DNA of 28,217 nucleotides from a virus. Where the stretch lies: positions 1-28,217 of IMG/VR virus record IMGVR_UViG_3300009149_000210; one strand, given 5' to 3'. Positions within the stretch are counted from its first letter, which is position 1, and each line of letters starts with the position of its first letter. Under the pieces are notes generated by a model. That model was not told the DNA's origin. It saw nothing but the letters and a program-made list of their open reading frames with translations, and searched no databases. The position numbers were made by a program, and so were the translations under genes. This document shows positions 8,331 through 27,533 of this stretch, piece after piece.

Positions 8331-9134
8331 ATGATAACTAATTTTAATGAATATAATTTATTACAGGAAAATTTAATGCTTGAAGCAAGTAGTCTTACTA
8401 AGCTCGGTGTTCCTAGAGAAGTTATGCAACCTATCCAAAAAGATTTAGCTTTACCAAAAGATGCTGAATGGAAAAAGATGGATCATAAAAAAGATGTTAT
8501 TGATTATTTAAGAAAAGGTGATAAGAATTTATTCATACAAATAGCAATTGATTCTATTAAAGTGTTTGGATCATACCCTTCAATAAAAGGTGCAATGTAT
8601 TTCATTGATAATTATATTTATAGGGATACTGAATGGGCAGGTGAATTTGAAAAGTTGAAAAGGGAATACAAAACTATAACACAATTAGCAATTGATATAG
8701 ACCCCAGGACCAATATTTATAAATTAGAAAATGATTTTGAAATTAATAACCAGGGGAAAAGAAAAATGATTAAGAAAGAAACTTCGTTTATCGAATTTTC
8801 AGATAGATTTAAAACACAATTTCTACAAAATTTTGATAAAGTATTAAAAAGACTGTCAGGTGTAGATTTTACAAAAGCTAAAAGTAAGATAACAGATAAA
8901 GCTAAAAGAATAGCTGTAGAAAATAAATTACTAATAAAGGGTCTTGATAATCCCCTAAATGGACCAAATGGATTATCTATTTTAGATGAATTTTTATATA
9001 AATTCGAAGATGCATATTCAGAATACTTCGAAGAAAGGATTGACATACAAGAATTAACTAAATATTTTACATACGATAAAGTGATGACGATGTTTATGTA
9101 TTACATATACACAGGTAAAATACTAGTTAATTAA
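8331..9134 (+). CDS. hypothetical protein with capsid-targeting-like N-terminus
   Basis: A 267-residue soluble, helix-rich protein. Its first residues, MITNFNEYNLLQENLMLEA, fit the F-x-x-Y/F tag found at the start of six proteins at 23.7-28.2 kb and in T4 internal proteins (MKTYQEFIAEA). L-Q-E at 11-13 would be a T4 gp21-type cleavage site. Residues 25-260 show no known motif; there is a Lys-rich stretch near 135-150 (NNQGKRKMIKKE), compatible with DNA contact inside a head. The gene stands alone between the SSB terminator and the gp62-like candidate. I infer an internal head protein; the body of the protein is not recognised. Confidence 0.6.
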   Translation: MITNFNEYNLLQENLMLEASSLTKLGVPREVMQPIQKDLALPKDAEWKKMDHKKDVIDYLRKGDKNLFIQIAIDSIKVFGSYPSIKGAMYFIDNYIYRDTEWAGEFEKLKREYKTITQLAIDIDPRTNIYKLENDFEINNQGKRKMIKKETSFIEFSDRFKTQFLQNFDKVLKRLSGVDFTKAKSKITDKAKRIAVENKLLIKGLDNPLNGPNGLSILDEFLYKFEDAYSEYFEERIDIQELTKYFTYDKVMTMFMYYIYTGKILVN

Positions 9135-10937: not shown

Positions 10938-11711
10938 ATGTTAAATTTATTTTTAAAATTGGAATCTGGTCAACAATTAAGGTTACTACCATTTAATGAA
11001 GATTCATTTTATGATAAATCTATTATGTGGTATTGTCAAAAACTACAAAAATATTTTGTATATAATGATACATCACTTATAGATTTTGAACACAGGGAAA
11101 AGGTATATCGTAATATAAAATACCACTTGCCTGTAGAATATAAGGATGAAATCTATTTCATTAAAATAGGTAGGAAGATAAAAGATATGATAGATAAAAT
11201 TATATCTGATAATGATTTTAAAGTTTCTGATTTTTTAAAATATGATATTTTATTAAATGTTAAAGTTACAAAAGTTCAAATCAGTACAGGGGTTATTGTG
11301 CCTAATTATGATGAATGTTCCATTAGTGTGAAAAGTGCAAATGATTATTGGGAATTTTTTAAAACACCACAATATGCAACCATTAAAGAAATGTATGATA
11401 AATACATAAATAATATGCAATTAGTAAAATCCCCAAAAATATTAAATTATTTAAATGATAATAATTTATTAGAACCAGCATATCAGTTTTTGATGAGATC
11501 ATCAAAGATAAATGATATAAGAAGTCGTAAAGTAAACACAACTAAAACGAAACTTTGGAACCAGGTAATTAATATGGTTGGTGAAACAGCAAACGAAAAT
11601 GACCATATAGAAGATATTGGATATTTAGATAAAAATGAAGATAATGAAAATGTTCATCAATTTATGGTGGATGGTTATTTATTTGAAATTAAAATAGTAG
11701 ATGATGTCTAA
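10938..11711 (+). CDS. diverged gp32-like (OB-fold) protein, second SSB candidate
   Basis: A 257-residue protein that shows, in order, the landmarks of the SSB at 7288. QQLRLLPFN (12-20) corresponds to ATIRFLPN. The next match is EIYFIKIGRKIKDMI (71-85) to IMVFPYGFKIKEKI, and then ILLNVKV to FRLIVKEV. VPNYDECS (121-128) corresponds to WPNYDSS. The interval from the KIK segment to PNYD is the same in both, 36-37 residues. The last 20 residues are acidic at first (EDNEN, 234-238) but end in a beta strand, unlike the gp32 tail. It could bind ssDNA or RNA, or regulate the main SSB. It follows the receiver gene by 30 bases. The match was made by eye, so it remains a hypothesis. Confidence 0.55.
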   Translation: MLNLFLKLESGQQLRLLPFNEDSFYDKSIMWYCQKLQKYFVYNDTSLIDFEHREKVYRNIKYHLPVEYKDEIYFIKIGRKIKDMIDKIISDNDFKVSDFLKYDILLNVKVTKVQISTGVIVPNYDECSISVKSANDYWEFFKTPQYATIKEMYDKYINNMQLVKSPKILNYLNDNNLLEPAYQFLMRSSKINDIRSRKVNTTKTKLWNQVINMVGETANENDHIEDIGYLDKNEDNENVHQFMVDGYLFEIKIVDDV

Positions 11712-11862
11712 TAAATTATGTGGACATTTTAATTATTTTCGTGTTTATAATTATAAGGAAGGTGATTATAAATGTTGTAATTGTGAAAAAATACTAAACG
11801 AATATGATAGAAATATAATAGATAGAAATAAAAAATTAATTAAAATATTAACTAAAATATAA
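11704..11862 (+). CDS. mini zinc-binding protein (C-x-H ... C-x2-C), 52 aa
   Basis: A 52-residue ORF starting inside the end of the preceding gene (8-base overlap). It carries C-G-H at 6-8 and C-C-N-C at 24-27, that is C-x-H-x15-C-x2-C, a zinc-ribbon or finger-like arrangement, followed by a basic helix (DRNKKLIKILTKI). The overlap, the intact frame filling the gap up to 11862 and the ligand pattern argue that it is real. A similar pattern appears at 13210-13380. Its target is not known. Confidence 0.6.
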   Translation: MSNKLCGHFNYFRVYNYKEGDYKCCNCEKILNEYDRNIIDRNKKLIKILTKI

Positions 11863-23686: not shown

Positions 23687-23800
23687 TTATTTCTTAGTTA
23701 TTAATAATGTATCACCGAATAATTTCTTTTTATATTTATAATCATCTGGTAATAATTTTTCTATATATCTAATATATATATGTTCTTTCTTCTTTTGTCC
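23687..23800 (-). pseudogene. probable C-terminal part of the 24162 gene in the -1 frame
   Basis: On the minus strand, 37 codons in the -1 frame relative to the gene ending at 23761 read GQKKKEHIYIRYIEKLLPDD followed by YKYKKKLFGDTLLITKK and a stop at 23687-23689. That stop lies 3 bases from the ATG at 23683, matching the tight spacing elsewhere in the operon. The family to which the gene seems to belong ends in a similar R/IY-x-RYI-x-x-x-LP segment. A TAA in this frame just upstream limits the frame change to the A-rich stretch at about 23761-23805. Confidence 0.55.
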
Positions 23801-24162
23801 TTTTTAAAATTAGATACAGGATTAATTTTTAATAACTTTGGGTCATATTCTTTTACAAATTCTTTAATAATATTAACAACGGTTGACATCACCCTATAAA
23901 ATCTTCCTTTGTTTACAACAATTCTATCACCTTCATTATCATCATCCCCTGTTGTTACAAATTCTACTTGATAATGACCCATCCATTTTTCTTTGTGTTG
24001 AAATTCTCCTATATGGAAAAACCTAACTATATATTTATCACCATCATCTGTTGTGAATGTATAATAAGTTGCTAATTCATAATCTATTTCTTTCTTATAA
24101 GAATATGGTTCAACCATTAATTGTCCTACTTCTTCATTTATAAATTCTGAATAGTTTTTCAT
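23761..24162 (-). CDS. CTS-tagged phage protein, frameshifted near its end
   Basis: The uninterrupted frame gives 133 residues. The N-terminus MKNYSEFINEE is nearly the T4 internal-protein capsid-targeting sequence MKTYQEFIAEA, with I-N-E (8-10) as a predicted prohead-protease site. Next come beta strands (YTFTTDDGDKYIVRFFHIGE, HYQVEFVTTGD) and then FYRVMSTVVNIIKEFVKEYDP, which matches the order of a phage family I remember, F-R-V-x-x-T-V-x-x-I-I-K-x-F. In that family a further helix and strand follow, but here the frame ends in KRRKNIYILDI. The missing part lies in the -1 frame (23687-23800). It overlaps the stop of the 24159 gene by 4 bases. This may be a natural frameshift, programmed slippage or an assembly error. 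Confidence 0.75.
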   Translation of the reverse strand: MKNYSEFINEEVGQLMVEPYSYKKEIDYELATYYTFTTDDGDKYIVRFFHIGEFQHKEKWMGHYQVEFVTTGDDDNEGDRIVVNKGRFYRVMSTVVNIIKEFVKEYDPKLLKINPVSNFKKDKRRKNIYILDI

Positions 24163-24590
24163 CGTGGATCGAAATTTGGATTTTCAACAATTGTATCTGT
24201 TTCTTTGTTATAATATCCCATCACAAATCTTGGTGGTAATGTATACATTAATTGATCTCCATCTTCACCACCCATGAATGGTTCTTTTATTGTTAATAAA
24301 TCATAATCTTTTGGTATATTATCATCAATTTGTATAATTATTATATAATTACCATATGCTGTTCTTAGATATATATTATAAGCTAATGAAGTCATATCTT
24401 TATTTATATCATCAGTTGTTTTACGAAATATATCATATTGATATCCTTCTTCCATAATTTTTTTACACGTTTCTTCTTCTTTTGTAGTGTGTAAATAAGT
24501 ATGCACATAACCATCGGTACTAGATATAAAATCTAATAATTCTTTATATTCGTGTTTTAAAAATGTTTCAAATAATTTAATGTGTTTCAT
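24159..24590 (-). CDS. CTS-tagged protein, possible ADP-ribosyltransferase-like fold
   Basis: A 143-residue protein starting MKHIKLFETFLKHE, a variant of the tag shared by this cluster. Residues 28-60 hold YVHTYLHTTKEEETCKKIMEEG, which resembles the first ART motif (H-x-T, helix, I-x-x-x-G). It continues with an R-x-x-YGNYIIIIQIDD strand (76-91) and LPPRFVMGYYNKETDTIVEN (118-137). T4 packages the ADP-ribosyltransferase Alt in its head, so an injected ART would be in keeping, but the Glu of the catalytic triad cannot be assigned and I rate the match weak. It lies 2 bases after the CCA-adding enzyme gene. Confidence 0.55.
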   Translation of the reverse strand: MKHIKLFETFLKHEYKELLDFISSTDGYVHTYLHTTKEEETCKKIMEEGYQYDIFRKTTDDINKDMTSLAYNIYLRTAYGNYIIIIQIDDNIPKDYDLLTIKEPFMGGEDGDQLMYTLPPRFVMGYYNKETDTIVENPNFDPR

Positions 24591-25892: not shown

Positions 25893-27014
25893 CTATTTAT
25901 CTTTTAAAATATTAATATCGAATAATATAGATTTGTTTTTATTGTAATTATCTTCGATACCAAATATTATTTTATCATTTTTATATATTTTATAATCTAT
26001 ATTATTATCATAGTAATTATCAGTATTAAATTCTTCATAGTCATTAATATCTTTTACTAATGATTGGAAAAACGGATAGATAGTACCTTCGAAGTTATTA
26101 ATAAAATCATCATCTAAAATTTTTAAATTATCTATATCTATATTAGATATTTCAGATAATCTTTTAATTTCTTTTCTTTTACTCATTGACATAAAATCAT
26201 CTTTTGGAAAATGGGAAAAGTCATATAGTTCATCTGAATTTAAAATAAGACTACGAATATCATCATCAGATTTAGCTACCATTTGGTCTCTAAGTGATTC
26301 TGTCATCCAATCATCAGTTTTTGCTAAATCACTATCCATATAATCTAATAATCGCCAACCACGTAATACACCTTGAAAGGTTTTTAATTGTTCTGGTTCT
26401 AATTTATCTTCTATTTTCTTTTTTGTTTCTTTGTTTGCAGCTACCCATAAATCAGCAATATCTAAATACGGCATTTTCATCGAATTTTCTATCTTAGATA
26501 AAATTTTACCATTAATTTCTTTATCATCTTTAGGTGTCATTTGATCTCTTAATGATTCATCTAATCCTATTTCGTGTTTAATTAATGATTCAGCTATTTT
26601 TTTAAATTTTTTCTTATCATAATATAATATCATATCCTTTAAAAACATATCAATTGGATAATAAGATTTATCATTTTTTCTTATTGTTTTATAAATCGTA
26701 TCTACTATTTCTCTACCATTTGTTAATCCTAATATGTTATCTTTTATAATTTCTTCATTAAATGAATTATCATCAAATAATCCTAAACTCATATCTATAA
26801 TATATTCTACACCAAATTCAACAACAAAATAATATAGATTATCAATATATGAAGTTCTATAATCATTTTCAAAAAATCTTTTGTAAATTTTATCACATAT
26901 TTCACCGTTATTACCAACTAATAATTTATCTATTATTGGTTGTATATCTTTAGATATCATGTGATCCCTAAGTGATTCATTAAATTCTTCAAATGTTTTA
27001 AGTATTGATTTCAT
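25893..27014 (-). CDS. three-module CTS-tagged protein with repeated E-S-L-R-D motifs
   Basis: A 373-residue protein. FEEFNESLRDHMISKD (8-23), GLDESLRDQMTPKDD (150-164) and MTESLRDQMVAKSDD (237-251) are three copies of one motif, at Glu13, Glu153 and Glu239. They delimit modules of 140, 86 and 134 residues. Module 1 is homologous to the whole 27066 protein: YDKKKFKKIAESLIKHEIGL here, YDPEEFKKIAKNMLKKELKL there. Modules 2 and 3 are helical and acidic without known motifs. L-D-E fits the L/I-x-E rule of T4 gp21-type prohead proteases; F-N-E and M-T-E are near fits. I infer a packaged precursor cut into three proteins. It is the first gene of the minus operon. Confidence 0.75.
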   Translation of the reverse strand: MKSILKTFEEFNESLRDHMISKDIQPIIDKLLVGNNGEICDKIYKRFFENDYRTSYIDNLYYFVVEFGVEYIIDMSLGLFDDNSFNEEIIKDNILGLTNGREIVDTIYKTIRKNDKSYYPIDMFLKDMILYYDKKKFKKIAESLIKHEIGLDESLRDQMTPKDDKEINGKILSKIENSMKMPYLDIADLWVAANKETKKKIEDKLEPEQLKTFQGVLRGWRLLDYMDSDLAKTDDWMTESLRDQMVAKSDDDIRSLILNSDELYDFSHFPKDDFMSMSKRKEIKRLSEISNIDIDNLKILDDDFINNFEGTIYPFFQSLVKDINDYEEFNTDNYYDNNIDYKIYKNDKIIFGIEDNYNKNKSILFDINILKDK

Positions 27015-27065: not shown

Positions 27066-27533
27066 ATGAAGATGATTAAGAATTTTAAACAATATAATGA
27101 ATCCATAAGGGATAAAATGGAAGGTGTACCAACCGAAGAAGTTAAGAAAAAAATAGATGAAATTTTATCTGGTGATAATGAAGATATTACTTCTAAAATA
27201 TATGATTTTTTCGTGAAAATATATAATGATTATTCATATGCTGATGTATATGAAGATATAACATTTAGCTTTGATCCGGATTTTACAAGAAAAACAATTC
27301 TTAAATTAATCAAAGAAAAAATGGATGATGGTTATTATAAAAAAGCATCAGAAGTTCAAAAAGATGATACGGAAGAATTCTTAACCGAAATTTATGATAT
27401 ATTATATTATCAAGATGATTATATGTATATGGAATTAATAGAAGATTTAATAAACGAATACGATCCTGAAGAATTCAAAAAGATTGCAAAAAATATGTTA
27501 AAAAAGGAATTAAAACTAAACGACTGGTTATAA
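27066..27533 (+). CDS. CTS-tagged helical protein, single-module relative of 25893
   Basis: A 155-residue, acidic, mostly helical protein. It starts FKQYNESIRDKMEG (7-20), with Glu12-Ser13 as the tag motif, and resembles module 1 of the 373-residue protein transcribed in the opposite direction, including I-x-x-K-I-Y near 40 and the matching end YDPEEFKKIAKNMLKK. It stops exactly where that module would join the next (KLNDWL). Its stop overlaps the next ATG (TAATG), so the two are coupled. Function unknown; predicted internal head protein. Confidence 0.7.
   Translation: MKMIKNFKQYNESIRDKMEGVPTEEVKKKIDEILSGDNEDITSKIYDFFVKIYNDYSYADVYEDITFSFDPDFTRKTILKLIKEKMDDGYYKKASEVQKDDTEEFLTEIYDILYYQDDYMYMELIEDLINEYDPEEFKKIAKNMLKKELKLNDWL

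Follow-up and report, generated by a model that had tools for sequence, protein, structure and literature searches.

A repeated Glu-Ser-Leu-Arg-Asp motif separates modules within protein chains of a huge phage and may mark prohead protease sites

Genes carrying the motif in a piece of a huge-phage genome

The stretch of DNA analysed here (the window, 28,217 bases) constitutes a whole virus record, for which a bacterial origin was ruled out. It is a piece of the genome of an uncultured huge T4-type phage and contains genes coding for a T4-type single-strand DNA-binding protein, an RtcB ligase, a thymidine kinase and a CCA-adding enzyme. The related contig G004 is syntenic with the window, and one of its proteins is 49% identical to a protein of the 735-kb phage LR756501, while the tail-tube protein of sister contigs shares 42% identity with that of huge phages of up to 735 kb. 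A phage protein encoded at 670-1542 (+) bears a type IX secretion sorting domain (TIGR04183), a sequence feature that points to a host among the Bacteroidota. The adjacent region 1601-3391 (-) codes for a protein of 597 aa that is rich in W-x-x-G and F/N-N-G repeats and gave a weak pentapeptide match; G004 has a similar ORF in the same place.

The gene under study codes for a chain of 373 aa with the following features:

25893..27014, - strand: ORF of the three-module chain, 373 aa
26976..27014, - strand: N-terminal leader, residues 1-13 (MKSILKTFEEFNE), resembling a T4 capsid-targeting sequence (compared with PMC9026906), with a predicted cut after Glu13
26958..26978, - strand: N-terminal motif copy, Glu13-Ser14
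26556..26975, - strand: module 1, residues 14-153, which has a relative in the stand-alone ORF at 27066
26538..26558, - strand: internal motif copy, Glu153-Ser154, predicted cut
26298..26555, - strand: module 2, residues 154-239, related to a stand-alone 96-aa gene (L021, 5984-6271)
26280..26300, - strand: internal motif copy, Glu239-Ser240, predicted cut
25896..26297, - strand: module 3, residues 240-373, weakly related to a stand-alone gene (L005, 318-749)

The original prediction of a packaged polyprotein was based on the recurrence of E-S-L-R-D-x-M in this ORF. The motif is indeed found at Glu13, Glu153 and Glu239, preceded by F-N, L-D and M-T as had been described. The predicted three internal sites are, however, three copies in the chain, of which two are internal and the Glu13 copy is N-terminal. 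A DNA pattern for the motif matched five times in the window, compared to 0.01 matches expected from shuffled sequences. The neighbouring ORFs on the opposite strand also carry it:

27066..27533, + strand: single-module protein of 155 aa encoded on its own, in which SIRDKM comes after the leader MKMIKNFKQYNE
27533..28216, + strand: chain that opens with a leader and an ankyrin module, has its second module from Glu149 on and continues beyond the end of the window
27977..27997, + strand: motif copy inside the 27533 ORF, at its Glu149

The 27533 ORF opens with ESLTDRM, the sixth motif copy in the window.

Fused modules have separately encoded relatives

Module 1 had been proposed to be homologous to the single-module protein encoded at 27066. 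After removal of the motif, the two share 30% identity over 123 aa (E = 2e-4; shuffle z = 8.5, with none of 1000 shuffles equally good), and the 27066 ORF ends (LNDWL, stop) at about the position at which the 373-aa chain reaches its second motif, as had also been claimed. Module 2 is 57-64% identical to the stand-alone 96-aa protein of G004 (L021, 5984-6271), the 64% having been measured over 59 aa with the motif cut off. The G004 protein stops at DEWMQ where the window reads on as DDWMTE|SLRD, and both mature modules would count 86 aa after the predicted cuts. In G004, a CCA-enzyme-like start (MKNIRKYQNFNVSL) directly follows the DEWMQ end. Module 3 matched a stand-alone gene of contig G002 (L005, 318-749) with E = 5.5e-5 when the motif was included and z = 3.7 without it. 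By sequence comparison, all three modules of the chain thus have separately encoded relatives, two clear and the third weak. The second module of the 27533 ORF also has one, sharing 88% identity over 58 aa with a stand-alone gene of G004 (L021, 7642-8115; motif removed). At L021 5058-5873 (-), between the gene of the stand-alone module 2 and that of the CCA-adding enzyme, G004 encodes a probable homing endonuclease.

The original prediction had proposed a search among homologues for single modules occurring as separate genes that always open with the motif, and this arrangement was seen in relatives, where each separately encoded module carries its own MK...NE leader. Comparisons between related contigs, all with the motif removed, gave the same picture: module 2 of the G003 chain is 64% identical over 85 aa to module 1 of the G007 protein, module 2 of the G011 chain is 56% identical over 91 aa to a G017 gene (4244), and module 3 of the G003 chain is 33% identical over 101 aa to a G014 gene (23406). 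Relative to the G003 chain, that of G007 lacks the first module and has an extra module between modules 2 and 3, the joints falling at E-S-[LI]-R. In these alignments, gain and loss of modules fall exactly at the motif, and they support the view that the motif marks true module starts. The modular origin of the chain is well supported.

A conserved motif family with an invariant Glu-Ser

We collected 17 related contigs (G001-G017) from IMG/VR by pattern scans and tail-tube scans and read every contig in full; the motif occurs in 16 of them. When the whole 373-aa protein served as the query, no relatives were found among viral contigs or phage records, and motif patterns were required. Together, the window and G001-G017 contain about 60 copies with the consensus [h/T]-N-E-[S/G]-[LIV]-R-D-x-M-x-P-K-S-x-E-E-I, where h stands for a hydrophobic residue. 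The majority start a protein directly behind a leader of the form MKxxxxFxNE, and 19 lie within a chain. A profile of the motif core that omits the Glu and Ser columns recovered these 19 internal copies in the window and relatives, every one of them preceded by Glu-Ser, further matches being noise. Although some contigs had first been found with patterns containing Glu-Ser, the copies were then gathered without that requirement, and one scan did not use it at all. When 84,980 genomes of bacteria and archaea were scanned for the motif, five matches came back, all of which look like chance, and a literature search for the motif letters retrieved nothing relevant.

Ser is encoded by TCN or AGY and Arg by AGA or AGG at the motif, and this variation indicates that the constraint acts on the protein. 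A DNA recombination signal as the sole cause of the motif was rejected on the same ground, as codons vary while the protein is retained. A related explanation, that the internal copies are functionless relics of module recombination at short repeated motif DNA, would account for module gains and losses sitting exactly at the motif. We consider it very improbable, because the internal copies score as high as the N-terminal ones against the profile although the bodies of many modules are no longer recognizably similar, and because codons change, Ser being specified by both TCN and AGT, while the protein is kept.

Modules 1 to 3 of the window have no reliable family in Pfam or PHROGs, and only ankyrin, HD and CCA-adding domains were recognized among the modules. 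The CCA-adding enzyme domain is fused behind RDxM modules in two proteins (L022, 8105-9697; L024, 4579-6324), the second of which displays a full leader-like IKSFEQFNE in mid-chain, just ahead of the motif at residue 222. A further chain (L088, 4588-5973) begins with a leader and an HD-domain module, after which an internal motif copy introduces an ankyrin module.

Leaders resembling T4 capsid-targeting sequences

The leaders of RDxM proteins span 8-13 residues and end in E, nearly always as NE. Of 553 proteins, 87 have the hNE pattern within residues 5-16, compared to about 2.5% in control stretches; in the protease-bearing relatives described below, whose loci hold mainly structural genes, it was not above control. 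In T4, the first 10 residues of IPIII are enough to target it, and the protease gp21 cuts after L/I-x-E (PMC9026906). Like T4 IPI-III and Alt, which are cut by gp21 (PMC9026906), the proteins described here combine a leader of about 10 residues ending in Glu with a predicted cut after h-x-Glu, and they would likewise form a head cargo that changes fast and is for the most part non-essential. The residue after the Glu is kept as Ser or Gly in RDxM proteins, whereas leaders without RDxM often show Glu, Asn or Phe there, so that cutting of every leader is not required. Leader-like N-termini without RDxM occur in the window at 23764-24162 (MKNYSEFINE), 24162-24590 (MKHIKLFETF) and 8331-9131 (MITNFNEYN).

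The presence of such leaders on enzyme genes as well, as in the CCA-adding fusion at L022 8105-9697 and the HD-domain chain of L088, could mean that they are not capsid-targeting sequences, that the proteins act in the cell and that the motif signals to some other phage protease or to a partner. Since the form and length of the leader fit the T4 targeting sequence and several such genes sit within a cluster of tail and baseplate genes (L018, L016), we judge this very improbable.

The original prediction held that the residues before each Glu obey the hydrophobic-x rule of T4-type prohead proteases. This is true in the window; among the 19 internal sites of the window and relatives, however, P3 is hydrophobic in 10 and Thr in 9, while N-terminal copies have F, Y, I or V. 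Thr at P3 departs from the T4 rule. The phiKZ site is S/A-x-E, so P3 can differ between phages.

The same h-N-E-S site in the prohead protease of related huge phages

Within the wider group of huge phages, the gene order is T4-like, with a portal gene, a protease fused to a scaffold and a gp23 capsid protein. The Pfam match of the protease, to S77 or S80, scores at or close to the cut-off. In all 80 loci, the protease domain ends with [LIV]-N-E-S-[LFVY], and the scaffold part contains 18 occurrences of [LIVMF]NES compared to 2.3 in shuffled sequences, an eightfold enrichment. The site at the protease junction and in the scaffold is the one seen in the leaders. The position of the junction is comparable to that at which the related SPN3US protease cuts itself C-terminally, AQE-203 (PMC5694885).

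The head cluster of LR756501 and its relatives (portal, protease-scaffold fusion, gp23) belongs to the same wider group as the window, as judged by the tail tube and other structural genes. The junction of its protease is h-N-E-S, yet the RDxMxPKS module family was absent from those genomes as searched: a scan of 19 protease-bearing contigs for the RDxM motif found none, and complete relatives gave only divergent single matches. Conversely, the RDxM contigs, all of them fragments, yielded no protease when searched for it directly; control genomes were also negative by that search, and relatives were positive on repeat. Beside the fused protease, LR756501 has another S77 protease-like ORF, which is short (178 aa) and lacks a scaffold (11386-11787 (-), L051). 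The scaffold part of three fusions (L067, 18546-20000; L063, 13913-16333; L070, 5345-7636) contains long 14-residue repeats, e.g. SEYIAENLDKNIAY, in which EYIAE resembles the end of a T4-type targeting leader, as if leaders mimicked the scaffold repeat.

Cleavage or docking at the internal motif copies

The invariant Glu-Ser, together with h-N-E-S at the protease junction and in the scaffold, favours cutting at Glu|Ser by a prohead protease. Conservation nevertheless reaches about 15 residues beyond the Glu-Ser bond. The conservation of RDxMxPKSxEEI exceeds the needs of cleavage alone and suggests a second function such as docking, which keeps alive the reading of the chain as an uncut multidomain protein. 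This is the main rival to cleavage, and we regard it as plausible though not probable. Each module would carry SLRDxMxPKSxEEI as a portable docking element (a short helix, a turn and the start of a helix) that binds a scaffold, capsid or host partner and was retained upon gene fusion, at most the N-terminal leader being removed. Besides the long conserved extension, S-x-x-D and S-x-x-E resemble helix N-caps, an N-terminal Ser or Gly suits an N-cap as well as P1', and module shuffling alone could explain fusion and fission. Left unexplained are the Glu retained before Ser in 19/19 internal copies, though other leader residues were lost, and the h-N-E-S common to the protease junction and the scaffold.

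Burial of the motif inside a continuous fold had been named as an outcome that would refute the polyprotein. AlphaFold models of the window protein and of the G003 chain reached mean pLDDT values of 54.5 and 57.8, a low confidence obtained with few sequences. In the G003 model, much of modules 2 and 3 is predicted at pLDDT 70-86, but values are mostly below 50 across the motif region that separates them (187-228); in the window protein, confidence falls at about residues 151-180. The models, weak as they are, place the motif in low-confidence linkers between better predicted modules and mildly argue against its burial in a continuous fold. Fold searches with the weak model gave nothing informative.

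Discussion

We propose that the 373-aa chain is a precursor in which several head-targeted, virion-internal proteins are fused. This is the best single explanation of the data, and we give it about even odds. The leader MKx(h)xxFxxFNE would work like a T4 capsid-targeting sequence and bring the chain into the prohead core, where a T4-type prohead protease of the phage would cut after Glu in (h or T)-x-Glu|Ser-[LIV]-Arg-Asp. The cut at Glu13 would take off the leader, and those at Glu153 and Glu239 would free three mature proteins, each opening with an SLRDxM element. Entry of the chain into the head, cleavage at Glu153 and Glu239 and delivery of the products to the host are what we infer.

T4 gp22 and gp67 and head proteins of phiKZ and SPN3US are likewise chains that a prohead protease cuts several times after x-x-Glu (PMC5694885, PMC10052503). 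In those chains, the additional cuts break down core proteins or propeptides; the cuts predicted here would part modules that are whole proteins elsewhere. Unlike T4 cargo, with its single mature protein per chain, the chains described here fuse several modules, repeat the site and carry the conserved RDxMxPKS extension. The products of a polyprotein should be independent units, and separate genes whose ends match are known for the modules, weakly so for module 3. It is conceivable, at a little under an even chance, that tailed phages possess true polyproteins, in which head-targeted chains are cut by the prohead protease, the products are packaged and perhaps injected, and the cut site doubles as the joint at which phages acquire, lose and swap modules.

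If the internal sites are cut, several virion proteins would be loaded on one targeting leader and separated inside the head, an arrangement of which we found no case among cargo proteins in the literature searched. The tag also provides a search handle: the modules that bear it number approximately 60, many of them have no known relatives, and they are candidates for virion-delivered proteins of huge phages.
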